NCBI GenBank assembly: GCA_027071315.1
Contig: JALSUP010000036.1
Coordinates: 1-40,962, forward strand
From: Sulfurovum sp.
Lineage (GTDB): Bacteria > Campylobacterota > Campylobacteria > Campylobacterales > Sulfurovaceae
DNA: 40,962 nt
Direction: 5' to 3'
Below, one piece after another: positions 33,049-40,962 of this stretch (its first letter is position 1; each line of letters opens with the position of its first letter). Made by a program: the position numbers and the translations under genes. The notes under the pieces were generated by a model. The model made no database searches and was not told the DNA's origin. It was given only the letters and a program-made list of their open reading frames with translations.

Positions 33049-35250
33049 ATGTATCAAGATCAATTGTATAAAAGGCTTGCTTATCTTGAAGAGCAGCGGT
33101 CCGTTATTGAAGAAGAGATTATAATAATAAAACGAGAGATTGAAAAACTGTCACCATTTTCCAAGGCTGATAAGATTGCACTTTTCCGTCAACTTTTCAT
33201 AGGGAACAAACTTGTGTATGCCAAACATTGGATCAGTAAAGATGGTTTGAAAAAAGGTTATTCCCCTGTATCAAAGACATTTCGGGGGACGGACTATATT
33301 CCTCTAAATAATCACATCATCCAACAGCATCTTGAAGGTAAAATGAGGATGGGAACATATGCTGTTAAAAATCAGACGATGTGTTCTTTTCTTGCAGTTG
33401 ATCTGGATAAGTCCAGTTTTGTTGCAGATGCCAGAGCAATTCATGCTGTATGTAAAATGATGGATATACACCCATACTGTGAACTTTCTAAATCAGGGAA
33501 CGGAATTCATATCTGGTTTTTCTTTGCTGAAGATGTGAGAGCCAGAGATGCAAGGATACTTGGTGACTTGATGATTACCAAAGCTATGGATATCAGTGAT
33601 GGTATCGATATGAAAAGTTATGATCGTCTCTTTCCCAATCAGGACTATGTTGCCCCCGATGCACTGGGTAATCTTATCGCACTGCCTTTACACTATGGAT
33701 CTCGTAGTGAAGGGAAAACAGTTTTTATAGATATTGATACTATGCAACCCTATGAGAATCAATGGGACATACTTCAAAATGTTATTAAAATCCCCTCACA
33801 GAAACTACAGAATCTGATAGCTGACTATGCGAGACTGACTGAGGCGACAACTTTGATGCCATGGGAAATCAAACAGGAAAAGTTGATACTGCCAAAATCG
33901 ATTCAAATGGTTTTACACAATGCAATTTATATTGATAAGTCAGCACTCTCAAAAACATTTCTCAATCTACTAAAAAGAATGGCATCCTTTTACAACCCGG
34001 AATTTTTTATGCGTCAAAGGCAGAGACTGTCAACATTCAATACTCCAAGGGTTGTCTCGACCTATGAGTTAAATGAACGTTATATTATTTTGCCTCGTGG
34101 ATTGTATGGAAAACTTTTGCGTTTTTTCAAAAAACATCGTATACCTGTCAGTATAGAAGATAAACGTTTAAAGCAGAAAGTGTCTTCTCAAAATTTTCAT
34201 TTAAAACTTCGGTATGAACAGAACAAAGCACTTGATGATATTTTAAAGAATGATTACTCCTTATTGATCGCACCTCCCGGATTTGGTAAAACAGCAGTTG
34301 CCGCAGCAGTGATTTTCAAGCGTTCTGTAAAAACACTCATTTTAGTGCATAAAACGATTCTTTTGGAACAGTGGGCAAATAGACTAAGTGAATATTTTCA
34401 AATTGACATCAAATCAATAGGCATATTGGGCAAAGGAAAGAAAAAACTCAATGGCAATCTTGATGTTGTTACATTACAATCATTAAAAAACAGAGCTGAG
34501 CTAATTGAAAACTATTCACAGATTATTATTGATGAAGCACATCATATGCCGGCTGTTTCGTTTGAAATACCACTTAAGAGATTTAAAGGAAAATATGTGT
34601 TGGGGCTAAGTGCGACACCCAAACGTAAAGATGGGATGGAAGCGATCATGTATCTTCAGTGTGGGGACATAGTGCATGAATCCGTACGAAAAAACAGAGT
34701 GAAGCATACACTGAAAACCATTACGACCCAATACGATACTTTTTTAGATCATTTTAGCATGATGCTTGGCGAGATTACAGAAGATGATATGCGAAATAAG
34801 CAAATCATAGAGGAGATAATAAACCTTTCAGATAGAAAGATTCTTGTATTGAGTGAGCGTATTGAACACTTAAACATTTTGTGGCATATGTTGGAAGCAA
34901 AGGGGATTGATGCTGTGTTGCTTTATGGTGGACTTAAAACAAAAGAGAAGAGGTTGCAGTTTGAAAAAACGGAGAATGCATCCATTATTCTTTCAACAAG
35001 CAGTTATATTGGTGAGGGAATTGACATAGGACATCTTGATACCATTATTTTCACCATGCCTATTTCTTACCCTGAGCGTATAGTGCAATATTTGGGACGG
35101 ATAGGCAGGCAAGGGCAACAGTGTCTTGCTATAGATTTTATTGATGCCACTGTGCCTATGTTAAAAAATAGTTTTAACAAGAGAATGAGAGGGTATAAGA
35201 AAATGGGCTATGTATTGTCTCATAGTAGATCATTATTTGAACCTATCTAA
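33049..35250 (+). CDS. TOTE-type archaeo-eukaryotic primase fused to SF2 helicase
   Basis: 733 residues. A coiled coil (about 5-38) is followed by an archaeo-eukaryotic primase/polymerase (AEP) domain (about 45-250) with catalytic D118/D120 (LAVDLDK), the SGNGIHIW motif (149-156) and YDRLFPNQDYVAP. The pattern matches the AEP domain of TOTE conflict systems, but the usual Cys-rich zinc insertion before IPLNNHIIQQHLEG is missing. The SF2 helicase (about 395-715) has Walker A APPGFGKTA (K414), DEAH (495-498), GLSATPKR and QYLGRIGRQG. No nuclease domain follows. Likely a nucleic-acid-targeting defence or mobile-element protein. It is AT-richer than the rTCA genes and lies between repeats of the rnpB end, next to a toxin-antitoxin pair. 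Confidence 0.85.
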   Translation: MYQDQLYKRLAYLEEQRSVIEEEIIIIKREIEKLSPFSKADKIALFRQLFIGNKLVYAKHWISKDGLKKGYSPVSKTFRGTDYIPLNNHIIQQHLEGKMRMGTYAVKNQTMCSFLAVDLDKSSFVADARAIHAVCKMMDIHPYCELSKSGNGIHIWFFFAEDVRARDARILGDLMITKAMDISDGIDMKSYDRLFPNQDYVAPDALGNLIALPLHYGSRSEGKTVFIDIDTMQPYENQWDILQNVIKIPSQKLQNLIADYARLTEATTLMPWEIKQEKLILPKSIQMVLHNAIYIDKSALSKTFLNLLKRMASFYNPEFFMRQRQRLSTFNTPRVVSTYELNERYIILPRGLYGKLLRFFKKHRIPVSIEDKRLKQKVSSQNFHLKLRYEQNKALDDILKNDYSLLIAPPGFGKTAVAAAVIFKRSVKTLILVHKTILLEQWANRLSEYFQIDIKSIGILGKGKKKLNGNLDVVTLQSLKNRAELIENYSQIIIDEAHHMPAVSFEIPLKRFKGKYVLGLSATPKRKDGMEAIMYLQCGDIVHESVRKNRVKHTLKTITTQYDTFLDHFSMMLGEITEDDMRNKQIIEEIINLSDRKILVLSERIEHLNILWHMLEAKGIDAVLLYGGLKTKEKRLQFEKTENASIILSTSSYIGEGIDIGHLDTIIFTMPISYPERIVQYLGRIGRQGQQCLAIDFIDATVPMLKNSFNKRMRGYKKMGYVLSHSRSLFEPI

Positions 35251-35478: not shown

Positions 35479-35754
35479 ATGAATTTAGAACAAAGTATTG
35501 TCTTTTCTGGGACTATTTTTGCACAGCTCGTAGATGATGAGCTTGTGTTATTGGATATGGAGAGTGAAAAGTATTTTGGTCTGAATGAAGTCGGTACATC
35601 TATCTGGCAGGCGATGCAGGAGAACAAAAAACTACAGGATGTCTATGAGGTATTGCTGGAAGAGTACGATGTAACACCCGAAGTGCTGAAAGAGGAACTG
35701 ATGTCGTTTGTCGCTTCTATGTCCGATGCCGGGTTGATCACACTTGAAGATTAA
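35479..35754 (+). CDS. PqqD-like RiPP recognition protein (lasso peptide B1)
   Basis: 91 residues of the PqqD family. LVLLDMESEKYFGLNEVGTS, then IWQAMQ, is the usual opening of such domains, followed by DVYEVLLEEYDVT and a helix with DAGLITLED at the end. In lasso-peptide pathways this stand-alone protein binds the leader of the precursor peptide and presents it to the leader peptidase (B2). It is the first gene of the cluster, with an ABC exporter, B2, kinase and cyclase downstream. Confidence 0.88.
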   Translation: MNLEQSIVFSGTIFAQLVDDELVLLDMESEKYFGLNEVGTSIWQAMQENKKLQDVYEVLLEEYDVTPEVLKEELMSFVASMSDAGLITLED

Positions 35755-35783
35755 GTTTTTTTTCTTTTCCCTCACTGCTGCTG

Positions 35784-37553
35784 ATGCATAATACTTATAC
35801 TTTTCAAACCCTTTACCGTCAGATAAAGTCACAAAAAAGTGACTTTTGGCGTACCAACCTTTACGGTATACTGGCAACCTTACTGCTTTTACCTATCCCT
35901 ATGCTCATCCCACTACTTATCGACGAAGTGCTCCTGGAGCATCCGGGAAAAATGACAGCCTGGATCAGCTCTCTCTTTGGCAGTACTGAAACCTGGGTCT
36001 ATATTGTCACTATTCTTGTCACGGTGATGCTTTTACGTTTTGTAGCTTTCTATTTCAATAACCGAAAAACATTTTATGCCATAAAGATCACGCAAAAAAT
36101 TTCTTATCTACTCCGTTATCGTATTTTACATCATCTTGAACGTGTCTCTTTGGCAGAGTTTGAAACACTGAAGTCCGGAGGAGTAGCGGCAAAGACCATT
36201 CAGGATGTCGAGATGGTGAGTAGTTTTGCCGGACAGACAGTCGTTACTCTGCTTACTTCTGTGTTAATGCTTGTGGGTATTGCGGGTGTCATGCTCTGGA
36301 TGAACTGGGTACTGGCACTCCTTGTTTTCATACTCAATCCACTTTTCTTAGCCTTTTCCAAACTTTTGGGACGAAAAACAGGTGAGTTAATGCGTCGGCA
36401 AAATGAAGCGTACCAGGTTTATCAGGAGCTTTTGGCAGAAACACTTGAACTCTTTGTGCAAGTGCGTGCTTCCAATCAGGAAAAAAGCTTTTTTGGACTC
36501 TTGCAAAACCGTGCAAAAAAGATGGAAGAGACGGCACTCGACTACGGGTACAAGTCTATGGTCGCAAGCAGTGCTTCGGCTTTAATGACCACTACGGTCG
36601 TAGATGTCTTCCGTGCTTTGGGTATTGCTGCGGTGGCATACTCGGACCTGACCATTGGTATGATGATCGCCTTTCTTTTCTACCTCTCTACGCTTGTGCA
36701 GCCTGTACAGCAGCTTATGGGGCTGGTGATCGGCTATCAGACGACAAAACCGGCATTCGTACGCATCAATACACTCCTGACTCTGGAGCAGGAGCCGCAT
36801 TATGCACATGAAGAGAACCCTTTTGAAGGGAAAGTAACTACCTCTCTGGCACTCAATGACATCTCTTTTGCCTATGGTAACGGCAAGACAATACTGCATG
36901 GTATTTCTTTGAAAGCTGCTGAGGGACAGAAGATCGCGTTGATCGGTCCAAGCGGCAGCGGTAAGACGACGATCGCCCAGATCATGGTGGGGTTCTACCC
37001 TTCTCACAGAGGAGAGATACATTACGGAGATGCTCCCATAGAAAAGATCGGCTTACCTGTGGTGAGAGAAAATGTGGCACTCATGCTTCAGCAATCACTT
37101 TTCTTCAATGACAGTATACGCATGAACCTGACACTCTCTAAAACGATTGATGATGAAAAGATCTACAAAGCGCTTCGTGCTGCCCAGATGGAAGACTTTA
37201 TTAAAGGGCTGGAAGAGGGACTAGATGCACGTATAGGGAAGAACGGCATCCGTCTTTCAGGCGGTCAAAGACAAAGACTGGCCATTGCCAGACTCATACT
37301 CTCCGACCCGAAGATCGTCATCTTCGACGAAGCCACTTCCGCACTCGACAATGCCACAGAGTACCATCTTTATGAAACACTGGCACCCTTTCTTGAAGGC
37401 AGAACCACCGTCATCATCGCCCACAGAACCACAACCATTAAGCAGGCAGACTACATTTACCTCATAGAAGAGGGACGGGTTAAAGCAGAAGGGATTTATA
37501 ATGTCCTACAGGAAAATGGGCTAATAAAAGAAGATTTTGATGCAGACCAATAG
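35784..37553 (+). CDS. ABC exporter, fused permease and ATPase (lasso peptide D)
   Basis: 589 residues. A six-helix membrane domain (about 25-320) is followed by an ATPase domain (about 345-589) with Walker A GPSGSGKTT, signature LSGGQRQRLAIAR, Walker B IVIFDEATSALD and the H-loop IIAHRTTT. There is no C39 peptidase domain, so leader removal must be done by another protein, consistent with the separate B2 gene 12 bases downstream. Likely role: export of, and self-immunity to, the mature peptide. Confidence 0.9.
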   Translation: MHNTYTFQTLYRQIKSQKSDFWRTNLYGILATLLLLPIPMLIPLLIDEVLLEHPGKMTAWISSLFGSTETWVYIVTILVTVMLLRFVAFYFNNRKTFYAIKITQKISYLLRYRILHHLERVSLAEFETLKSGGVAAKTIQDVEMVSSFAGQTVVTLLTSVLMLVGIAGVMLWMNWVLALLVFILNPLFLAFSKLLGRKTGELMRRQNEAYQVYQELLAETLELFVQVRASNQEKSFFGLLQNRAKKMEETALDYGYKSMVASSASALMTTTVVDVFRALGIAAVAYSDLTIGMMIAFLFYLSTLVQPVQQLMGLVIGYQTTKPAFVRINTLLTLEQEPHYAHEENPFEGKVTTSLALNDISFAYGNGKTILHGISLKAAEGQKIALIGPSGSGKTTIAQIMVGFYPSHRGEIHYGDAPIEKIGLPVVRENVALMLQQSLFFNDSIRMNLTLSKTIDDEKIYKALRAAQMEDFIKGLEEGLDARIGKNGIRLSGGQRQRLAIARLILSDPKIVIFDEATSALDNATEYHLYETLAPFLEGRTTVIIAHRTTTIKQADYIYLIEEGRVKAEGIYNVLQENGLIKEDFDADQ

Positions 37554-37565
37554 GATAGATAGTTT

Positions 37566-38027
37566 ATGATCAGAAAATTTAAAAAATTCACACAACTCTC
37601 TGCAGCAGAGAAAGCCCTTTTTCTTGAAGCCTATTATACACTGGGGATGATGCGTGCAGGTATTTTGACGCTTTCTTTCAAACGTCTGTCCCGTAAACTC
37701 CAACACTTTCCCAAAGCAGTTCCTCTGCCTGAACTGGATGAAAAACAGAGAATAAAAGCAGAAAACATCGGGCGTGCCGTGGTACGTGCTGCTGCATTCA
37801 CACCCTGGGAAAGTGCCTGCCTCGCACAATCACTCACTGCTCAGAAAATGCTGGAAAAACGCGGTATACCCGGTGTCTTCTACCTGGGTGTCGCGAAAGA
37901 TGAAACAGAACCCGGTAAAATGAATGCACACGCCTGGACACAATGCGGAGAACACATTCTCACCGGAAGCGGCGGACATCAGGCCTTTACCGTTGTCTCC
38001 GTTTTTGGCTGGAATTTACCAAAGTAA
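37566..38027 (+). CDS. Lasso-peptide leader peptidase (B2, transglutaminase-like)
   Basis: 153 residues of the lasso-peptide B2 family (transglutaminase-like cysteine protease). The catalytic Cys is C85 in TPWESACLAQSLTAQKML and the His is H122 in KMNAHAWTQCGE. RGIPGVFYLGVAKD is the usual stretch between them. The recognition domain is not fused to it but supplied by the PqqD-like gene, the arrangement known in many proteobacterial clusters. It cleaves the leader from the precursor, exposing the N-terminus for ring closure by the cyclase. Confidence 0.9.
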   Translation: MIRKFKKFTQLSAAEKALFLEAYYTLGMMRAGILTLSFKRLSRKLQHFPKAVPLPELDEKQRIKAENIGRAVVRAAAFTPWESACLAQSLTAQKMLEKRGIPGVFYLGVAKDETEPGKMNAHAWTQCGEHILTGSGGHQAFTVVSVFGWNLPK

Positions 38028-38107
38028 ATACTGGATCTATGATATTGCCATACTATGCCAGGACTAAAGTCGCCAGTTCCAAAACTTCTATCTCATTAAA
38101 TATAAGT

Positions 38108-38113
38108 TATAAT
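38108..38113 (+). promoter_or_regulatory. Possible internal -10 element before the kinase gene
   Basis: TATAAT lies 26 bases before the kinase ATG in a 111-bp gap within the cluster, suggesting that the kinase and cyclase genes can be expressed from a second promoter. Confidence 0.4.
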
Positions 38114-38138
38114 ATTTTAAAATACTTACGGAGCATTT

Positions 38139-39023
38139 ATGACCGCATATGGAATAAAGATCATCTCCGATATTGCCTTTCCTTTGGATCTGTTACAGGA
38201 GACGGAAAAACGCTATGAAGTAGAACTTTCTTCAAACATTCCGGAGCCGCTTAAAAATGCTATCACCTGTGGATTTTATCTGTATTGGGCACATGGACGT
38301 AGAGTATACCTCTATTCAGATCGTGAATTTGACGGCAGTGAAGCAGCGCAACCCTGGTGTTATGAGGTTGAAGATGTTGTGACGTTTTACTGGGGAGGTG
38401 GTGAGCGAACAATTTATTATGAGTTGGGTAAAAAAGGCGATGCGAACTTACTGGGTTTTTGGTTCATTCATCTTCTTTTGCCACTCTATATGACTTTGGA
38501 GAATATGTATGATCTTCTGCATGCTGGTGCGGTGGAAGTCGATGGTAAACCCATCTGCTTCATTGCCCCCTCAATGGGTGGTAAATCGACGATGACAGAT
38601 TACTTCATGAAGCAGGGGCATCCATTGGTCTCGGACGACAAGGTGCCGACTTTTATTCAGGACGGCAGTGTTATGGCCGTCGGTTCCCATCCGTATCACA
38701 GGCCTTACAGAAAGTTTGAAGAGTTGGGTTATAGGGTTGAAACGTTTACGGACAGCTTTAAACCCATCCATGCTTTTTACGAGCTTGAAGGTGCAGAGAG
38801 TGATGCAGAGATCAGGATAGAAGAGGTCAAAGGTTTTGCGAAGTTCGATGCACTTTTGCAAAATTATCTCTATATGTTCTCATGGCTGAAACCGCAACGT
38901 TTAAAATATCTTTCCCAAATGTTAAACAGTATCAGGGTTTTTCATGTGGCCGTGCCTTGGGATATGCAGAGATTGGGTGAAGTACATACAATGATCTGTA
39001 CACATAGTCAAGGGTTAAAATGA
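38139..39023 (+). CDS. HprK-like kinase of the lasso-peptide cluster
   Basis: 294 residues. The Walker A APSMGGKST (K149) and the following HPLVSDDKVPT are characteristic of HPr(Ser)-kinase-like proteins found in lasso and other RiPP clusters. The N-terminal 120 residues (YLYWAHGRRVYLYSD) form the usual substrate-side domain of this subgroup. In paeninodin-type pathways such a kinase phosphorylates the C-terminal Ser of the precursor; here the target cannot be seen. The start has ACGGAG upstream, and the stop overlaps the cyclase ATG by 4 bases. Confidence 0.85.
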   Translation: MTAYGIKIISDIAFPLDLLQETEKRYEVELSSNIPEPLKNAITCGFYLYWAHGRRVYLYSDREFDGSEAAQPWCYEVEDVVTFYWGGGERTIYYELGKKGDANLLGFWFIHLLLPLYMTLENMYDLLHAGAVEVDGKPICFIAPSMGGKSTMTDYFMKQGHPLVSDDKVPTFIQDGSVMAVGSHPYHRPYRKFEELGYRVETFTDSFKPIHAFYELEGAESDAEIRIEEVKGFAKFDALLQNYLYMFSWLKPQRLKYLSQMLNSIRVFHVAVPWDMQRLGEVHTMICTHSQGLK

Positions 39024-40924
39024 GTGGATTTCTTGGAATCTTTAATCGTAATGGAAACGCAGTAGAGAAAGAAATGGTTCAGACTATGCTTGATGCCAGC
39101 GACTATTGGGAAGCAGATGAAAAAGACACATGGTCAGAAGGGTTTGTTGCTCTTGGTCATACCATGTTGTGGAATACCCCGGAGTCCAAATATGAACACT
39201 TGCCTCTCAAAAAAGATGCCATTGTTTTAACCATGGATGCACGTATAGACAACCGTGAAGAACTGGCTAAAGAGATAGCTCTTCCTGACAGATCTTTAAG
39301 CGAAATAGGTGACAGTGAATTCATTTTGAGTGCTTATAAAAAATGGGGAGACGAGTGTCCTAATCATTTGTTAGGTGATTTTGCCTTTGCCATTTGGGAT
39401 GAGACAAAACAGCAACTTTTTTGTGCCCGTGATCATGTGGGTGTCAAGCAGTTTTATTATCATGTGTCTGAGACGCTTTTTCTTTTTGGAAATGACTTGA
39501 AAGGTTTGACTCAGTATCTAAATATTTCAAAAGAGATCAACGATGAAGCTGTGGCGAACTACATAGTCAACCATCAGCTTTTAAGTAATACATTGACATT
39601 TTTTGAAACTTTCATGAAGTTACCTCCTGCACATACACTAATTGTTTCTAATTCCAAGATAGAAGAAAAATGTTACTGGAGACTGGAAGATGCCCCAAAA
39701 GTAAAACTTCCCAATGCAGAAGCGTATGCCAAGAAACTGAGAGAGCTTTTAGAAGAAGCTGTGTATGCGAGAATGCGTTCGGACTATCCTATTACTTCAC
39801 ACTTGAGTGGAGGTCTTGACTCTTCATCTATTGCTGTTTTGGCAGCAAGGAAGTTGAAGGAAAAGGGTGAAAAACTTTTGGCATTTAACTGGGTACAAGA
39901 ACCTGGAGAGGGTGATGATCCTGAATATTATGAATGGGCAAATAGTAAAATGATCGCAGAAACTGAAGATATTGATCATCATTATGTCTCACTGACTTCT
40001 AAAGATATAGCTGCGCATATGAGTGAACGAAATATAGTTTATGGAGAAACTACACAATTTTGGTATGAATACCCGGTACGTGAGGCTGTTCAAAAAAGTG
40101 ATTCACGTACTATACTTTCCGGGTGGGGAGGAGACGAACTGGCTACCTATCATGGTCAGTCATTTTATGCTGACCTGTTTATGCATGGAAAGTTTTTGAG
40201 ACTTTTTAAAGAAGTAAAAGTAAGAATGAAAAAGAAAAAAGGCTTCAAACCTCTTCTTGGTTTTATTTATCATTGTATTTCTATACCGCTTGTAGCAAGA
40301 AATCTATATTGTAAAATGCCAAAAATCACTTGTGATGAAGCAACTTTTCCTTTTGTGCAAAAGGAATTTATGACTATGGTTGAAAAAGAGAACAATAGAT
40401 ACCGTATCTTGACAATGCAACCTCAAAAAACCATTAGAGAGCATATGATGGCATATTGGGATAATGCTCATATCCAAAGTCGAATAGAGTCTTGGGAAAC
40501 AGCTTCGAAAACTACCAAGATAGAGTACAAGTACCCTTTGCTAGACAAGCGTATTATTGAGTATATATTGGGAGTGCCGGTTGAGTACTTTGTTCAAGAC
40601 AGCATTGGACGATATTTGTTTCGCAATATTGTAAAAGATTTATTGCCTAAAAATATTGTATGGAATAATACAAAAACAGAACCTCAAAGAGTTAAAAGGT
40701 TATCTATATTGAGTCTTGATGCATTAAAACATATTGTTTCAGATTTGAAATTTGATTCCTCAAAATATATTATGATTGATCAACTATTTATAGAGGTTAA
40801 TGATATAAGACCAAATCAGTTAGATAGAACAGATATTCTAAAGGGCACCTCTAAAAATACCCTCCCAATTCCAAAATCAGAACCTAAAGTCATTATTCCT
40901 CAAATGATGCCTTCATTCATTTGA
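39020..40924 (+). CDS. Lasso macrolactam synthetase, asparagine-synthetase-like (C)
   Basis: 634 residues. The N-terminal part (about 1-200) is like the glutaminase domain of AsnB, but the nucleophile Cys2 is replaced by Ser (MSGFLGIF), so it should not use glutamine. The synthetase domain (about 225-530) has the ATP-pyrophosphatase loop SGGLDSS (263-269) and SGWGGDELATYHGQ. It would adenylate the Asp/Glu side chain of the core peptide and close the lasso ring with the free N-terminus made by B2. A C-terminal extension of about 100 residues is less conserved. The last third is AT-richer than the start of the cluster. The protein ends 38 bases before the window edge, so its stop is inside the window. 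Confidence 0.88.
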   Translation: MSGFLGIFNRNGNAVEKEMVQTMLDASDYWEADEKDTWSEGFVALGHTMLWNTPESKYEHLPLKKDAIVLTMDARIDNREELAKEIALPDRSLSEIGDSEFILSAYKKWGDECPNHLLGDFAFAIWDETKQQLFCARDHVGVKQFYYHVSETLFLFGNDLKGLTQYLNISKEINDEAVANYIVNHQLLSNTLTFFETFMKLPPAHTLIVSNSKIEEKCYWRLEDAPKVKLPNAEAYAKKLRELLEEAVYARMRSDYPITSHLSGGLDSSSIAVLAARKLKEKGEKLLAFNWVQEPGEGDDPEYYEWANSKMIAETEDIDHHYVSLTSKDIAAHMSERNIVYGETTQFWYEYPVREAVQKSDSRTILSGWGGDELATYHGQSFYADLFMHGKFLRLFKEVKVRMKKKKGFKPLLGFIYHCISIPLVARNLYCKMPKITCDEATFPFVQKEFMTMVEKENNRYRILTMQPQKTIREHMMAYWDNAHIQSRIESWETASKTTKIEYKYPLLDKRIIEYILGVPVEYFVQDSIGRYLFRNIVKDLLPKNIVWNNTKTEPQRVKRLSILSLDALKHIVSDLKFDSSKYIMIDQLFIEVNDIRPNQLDRTDILKGTSKNTLPIPKSEPKVIIPQMMPSFI

Positions 40925-40962
40925 GAGAAATTCTATAAAATCAATAGAAAAAATTCTTCCAT

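Follow-up and report, generated by a model that had tools for sequence, protein, structure and literature searches.

A probable kinase-bearing lasso-peptide cluster of paeninodin type in Sulfurovum, with its precursor gene beyond an insertion sequence

Five consecutive genes in a Sulfurovum genome (G000), in the order B1-D-B2-K-C, very probably form a lasso-peptide cluster of the paeninodin type, which is characterized by an HprK-like kinase, with the precursor gene A close behind C in convergent orientation and an insertion sequence (IS) between the two. The window, that is, the whole stretch of DNA analysed, is the entire contig C36 with its 40962 bp. All five open reading frames were found on the plus strand where the first-pass annotation had placed them, and its assignment of these genes as B1, D, B2, HprK-like kinase and C is upheld by Pfam and NCBIfam matches and by the residues. 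The lasso reading holds as well. The gene set, the catalytic residues, the precursor, the IS and its target-site duplication can be read directly from the DNA, and the biosynthetic steps discussed below are predicted from the analogy to paeninodin. Taken together with the related genomes, this is a complete lasso system with a kinase, open to experimental test, for which more than ten species of one Campylobacterota genus supply precursor sequences. In the literature searched, lasso peptides and Sulfurovum are named together in only two papers, where lasso peptides come up once or twice each.

The first gene, B1 (35479..35754, +), encodes a PqqD-like protein (Pfam PqqD, E 1.9e-18) that resembles the solved lasso protein TbiB1 (5v1u, E 1.5e-11) and provides the predicted leader-binding domain (RRE) expected in lasso clusters, with a score against NF033536 of 60.8 bits, under the cut-off of 80. 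It is followed by the ABC exporter D (35784..37553, +), in which permease and ATPase are combined (Pfam ABC_membrane and ABC_tran) and whose orthologues near B2 in relatives of the genus are 68-80% identical. The leader peptidase B2 (37566..38027, +) has the transglutaminase fold typical of these clusters (Transglut_core3, E 7.8e-26) and reaches 94.8 bits against NF033537, for which the curated cut-off is 33. Its residues C85 and H122 are present and are invariant across 12 aligned B2 proteins. Searches of the PDB with B2 and of PHROGs with B2 and K gave no match, and a search of plasmids for B2 yielded only distant B2 proteins.

The cyclase gene C was read in the window as an open reading frame of 634 aa (39020-40924, +), of which codons 1-608 (39020..40842) are native. 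The protein is AsnB-like, with Asn_synthase and GATase domains and the ATP-binding motif SGGLDSS, and it scores highest against the lasso cyclase model NF033535 (1.4e-132, 443.6 bits), although the score stays below the strict cut-off of 525. The first-pass annotation had made its interpretation dependent on whether the 153-aa and 634-aa proteins fall into the lasso B2 and C families; this is the case for B2, and for C by best model but not by cut-off. B1 and C thus match lasso models strongly and the precursor weakly, all three below curated cut-offs. C starts with MSG and has Ser2 in place of the glutaminase Cys2 of AsnB, which the nine homologues of this C type all lack as well; homologues from 9 relatives are 41-64% identical to C.

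The kinase K (38139..39023, +) is more divergent. It has no match in Pfam, stays under every curated model cut-off and reaches 22.2 bits against HprK-related kinase A (TIGR04352), where 200 are required; apart from this weak HprK_rel_A match there is a weak one to ScmC, and HPr kinase structures are weakly matched over their catalytic stretch. Its residues H128, K149, S150, D166 and D167, however, are invariant in 16 homologues and include the His-Lys-Asp-Asp motif that a review describes for kinases of the paeninodin type (PMC9266682), so that K is best described as an HprK-like precursor kinase. The initial statement that all catalytic signatures are present is confirmed: C85/H122 and SGGLDSS are there, as are H128/K149/D166/D167 in K, whose P-loop reads APSMGGKS in place of a three-glycine form. 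An AlphaFold model of K based on three sequences had a mean pLDDT of 46 and was too poor for use.

The first-pass annotation had described the cluster as having no visible precursor, which turned out to be an assembly artefact, as the contig breaks inside an IS and the precursor is found on contig C4. With only 38 bp between the stop codon of C as read and the contig end, the window could not show whether a precursor was absent. Its last 120 bases (40843..40962, +) are found about 19 times in G000, nearly always at contig ends, with 98-100% identity. All of these copies open with GGGCACCTCTAAAAATACCC, preceded by four bases that vary (TTAA, TAAA or TATA, for example), and the opposite IS end, ..GTATTTTTAGAGGTTCCC, opens other contigs, C4 among them. 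TAAA comes directly after the IS end on C4 and directly before the IS in the window (40839..40842, +), and these would constitute the two copies of a target-site duplication. This IS, bounded by GGG..CCC and flanked by 4-bp duplications, is present in many copies and fragments the G000 assembly. The open frame GRIFSIDFIEFLSNE, on the minus strand at the contig end, looked at first like the end of a precursor, but it lies within the IS and was dropped.

Residues 609-634 of C as read, i.e. its last 26 codons, are IS-derived and do not belong to the native gene. Across the junction of C36 and C4 the native frame of C is extended by 13 codons before it stops, giving 621 aa in total, which is near the 625-634 aa of the relatives; the IS has thus replaced 13 native C-terminal residues in a poorly conserved end. 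TAAA also occurs at two other right-end contigs, C143 and C154, and the join is therefore not unique by the duplication alone. It is based on the precursor, on the in-frame fit of C and on the convergent layout in G058, the nearest relative, whose C is 64% identical and is likewise followed by a convergent precursor, and not on reads. We take the IS to have entered C within its final codons, where it separates C from A in G000, and to have broken the assembly. The insertion might impair C, but a cyclase with the 26-residue IS-derived end may still work. For genome mining, the case illustrates how a RiPP precursor can escape notice when an IS breaks the contig.

The precursor gene A is a 56-aa open reading frame on the minus strand (G000:C4:287-457), MNEHIENESIRDLIAKVKKEWENPKITELNIKETKSGKTGFYVEGDYTHINTRSSS, with the leader and core MNEHIENESIRDLIAKVKKEWENPKITELNIKETK|SGKTGFYVEGDYTHINTRSSS. 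It has a WxxP leader motif, a Thr at position -2, a Glu suitably placed within positions 7-9 to close a ring, and a terminal Ser (the peptide ends Ser-Ser-Ser), and its linkage to the window would run across the IS. A hidden Markov model built from the precursors of eight relatives, with the own genome left out, found A among the G000 contigs at E = 2.8e-9; a second match on contig C122 (E 0.83) is attributed to chance. The strict precursor motif gave one match in 62 kb, as compared to 0.05 per shuffle. The match of A to the paeninodin (PadeA) family model NF033524 is weak, with E 0.0021 and 17.7 bits, below the cut-off of 27. Judged by Thr(-2), the ring would be formed by Ser1 and Glu9, and a cut one residue later would result in Gly1-Glu8, an ambiguity that is also found in G058 and G015. 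The product is likely a class II lasso peptide with one of these two rings. Its calculated mass would be 2287.051 Da ([M+2H]2+ 1144.533) for Ser1-Glu9 and 2200.019 Da (1101.017) for Gly1-Glu8, and one phosphate would raise these values to 2367.017 Da (1184.516) and 2279.985 Da (1141.000).

The pairing of C and precursor recurs in the genus, in which 78 genomes were analysed. In all ten clusters that have this type of C and sequence 3' of it, a precursor adjoins C, as a small open reading frame directly 3' on either strand; together with A on C4, this answers the earlier concern that a precursor might be lacking near C in this and related genomes. In G021, which has the same C type, the cluster runs to the contig end and a WxxP precursor lies past it, and the more distant cyclases of G065 and G041 are followed directly by lasso-like open reading frames. 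Examples of the cleavage regions are ..KTL|GGITQFNE.., ..RTL|GSKASGLE.., ..KTK|SGAPWTSE.. and ..ITL|GGSGTAAE.., and in the precursor alignment a K, the W and P of WxxP, the T and the E are invariant. The precursor of G015, outside the training set, was recovered at 1.4e-9. The first-pass annotation had considered such a cluster unusual for Campylobacterota, and indeed only 8 of the 397 genomes sampled across the phylum, from 4 of 68 genera, encode a lasso B2; this genus, where 24 of 78 genomes have one, is the exception. The host group given in the annotation was also right: of the named relatives, the closest two are a Sulfurovum sp. and a Campylobacterales MAG.

By analogy to paeninodin (PMC9266682), B1 would bind the WxxP leader, and K would then phosphorylate the linear precursor, most likely at its C-terminal Ser. 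B2 is predicted to remove the leader by cutting one residue after Thr(-2), C would activate the Glu and close a ring of 8 or 9 residues around the tail, and D would export the product. Known clusters of this type comprise PadeA/K/C/B1/B2/D, and their kinases include ThcoK and SyanK (PMC9266682; PMC13381572). The cluster described here shares with them the split B1/B2, C, D and an HprK-like kinase with His-Lys-Asp-Asp, as well as the WxxP leader motif, which is that of the paeninodin type (PMC13381572), Thr(-2) and the C-terminal Ser of the precursor. It differs in the order B1-D-B2-K-C with a convergent A, in the kinase P-loop, in its Campylobacterota host and in that no nucleotidyltransferase was seen in the sequence examined; moreover, the precursors of relatives often have no C-terminal Ser. 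HprK-like kinase, RRE and ABC exporter are also common to clusters for linear polyphosphorylated peptides in Bacilli, but these lack a B2 and a cyclase of their own and encode a signal-peptidase-like protease (PMC13381572), while B2 and C are present here.

The terminal Ser-Ser-Ser of A suits a C-terminal phosphorylation, and the phosphorylated product suggested by the first-pass annotation is plausible in view of this end and of the kinase residues; the site is possibly the C-terminal Ser. It is quite conceivable, though in our view not the likely case, that K phosphorylates another core residue, or that it is part of a broader kinase-B1 module. A precedent is BsfK from the Bsf lasso cluster of Bradymonas, which phosphorylates the ring residue Ser3 (PMC10368454) and whose H148/K169/S170/D186/D187 have the identical spacing as H128/K149/S150/D166/D167 of K. 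K keeps only one (G148) of the three BsfK glycines, the other two being replaced by A143 and M146, and Bsf has Ile at -2 and YxxP where Thr and WxxP are found here. Precursors end in Ser also in G036, G076, G015, G065, G056 and G064, and position 3 of the core of A is Lys (Thr if cut one residue later), which favors the C-terminal Ser. In G003, G006, G008, G018, G058 and G066, however, this Ser is absent, and several relatives without it keep K, with precursors that end in Gln, Tyr, Gly, Ala, Leu or Thr, some of them with a Ser at core position 3; across the relatives, Ile occurs as a last residue too. As the C-termini vary while the kinase is retained, the phosphorylation site is directly testable. 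K without B2 in 19 genomes also speaks for a broader role of the kinase. The occurrence of K and B1 outside lasso clusters in the genus could even suggest a non-lasso RiPP or a role of the AsnB- and HprK-like proteins in primary metabolism, but this is highly improbable and already contradicted by the B2 score, by Ser2 of C and by a precursor with WxxP, Thr(-2) and ring Glu.

Returning to the cluster as a paeninodin-type lasso locus, one may ask whether it is decaying, with the IS having replaced the end of C and a pathway left without product. The position of the IS within the C gene would be compatible with this, and there is a precedent in the relative G074, where K and C are broken and no precursor was matched. 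We nevertheless consider decay unlikely, because the catalytic motifs are all intact, merely 13 poorly conserved residues of C are replaced and the precursor gene on the opposite strand is intact. In G074 itself, the remnant (L036, 7140-8920) consists of kinase and cyclase in pieces beside intact genes for a Dsb-like protein, B1 and RsmG, and the precursor model had no match at this cluster.

Among the 78 genomes, K is found in 41, B1 in 42 and B2 in only 24, and 16 of the 19 genomes with K but without B2 carry a conserved Tat-like peptide, RRxFLKKxxYxAPxLxxLGxLxKP. This peptide occurs in 25 of the 78 genomes, all 25 of which have K (Fisher p 6e-10, which overstates independence since the species are related). 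Without B2 or cyclase nearby, the cassette comprises a LamG-type secreted protein, a lipoprotein, the Tat-like peptide of 56-74 aa, an HprK-like kinase, sometimes a Dsb-like protein, B1 and rsmG; it is found at the rsmG locus of relatives (L129, L130, L131, L132, L133, L134, L135, L136, L137, L143 and L144) and in the own genome at G000:C65:7924-8106 and G000:C86:178-2233. We tentatively propose, with considerable doubt, that kinase and B1 are a self-contained module of the genus that modifies two unrelated substrates, namely lasso precursors and the Tat-like peptide encoded with the LamG/P-domain secreted protein and the lipoprotein, and that the lasso phosphorylation site varies by species. 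No HprK-related kinase/PqqD systems were found in the literature searched for them.

Some further arrangements were seen in the genus. In four relatives (G021, G036, G076 and G003; L027, L028, L029 and L031), a single cluster seems to combine cyclases of two types with two precursors, one with WxxP and a Glu ring and one with YxxP and an Asp or Glu ring, which apparently share one D/B2/K set, the second cyclase of G003 being only partly on the contig; the literature searched for two-cyclase lasso clusters contained none. In G063, a genome with no lasso B2 match, a locus (L142, 7705-13093) combines a C2-type cyclase, kinase, B1 and a YxxP precursor, with two genes between B1 and K, one of which starts like an FAD enzyme. 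In most relatives the cluster adjoins B1 and rsmG, and a Dsb-like gene is often present too. The cluster of the window sits elsewhere with its own B1, and K2, a Dsb-like gene, B1b and rsmG are located on contig C86. Directly upstream of the cluster, at 33049-35250 of the window, a TOTE-type archaeo-eukaryotic primase fused to a helicase is encoded (Pfam AEP-TOTE, 6.8e-69).
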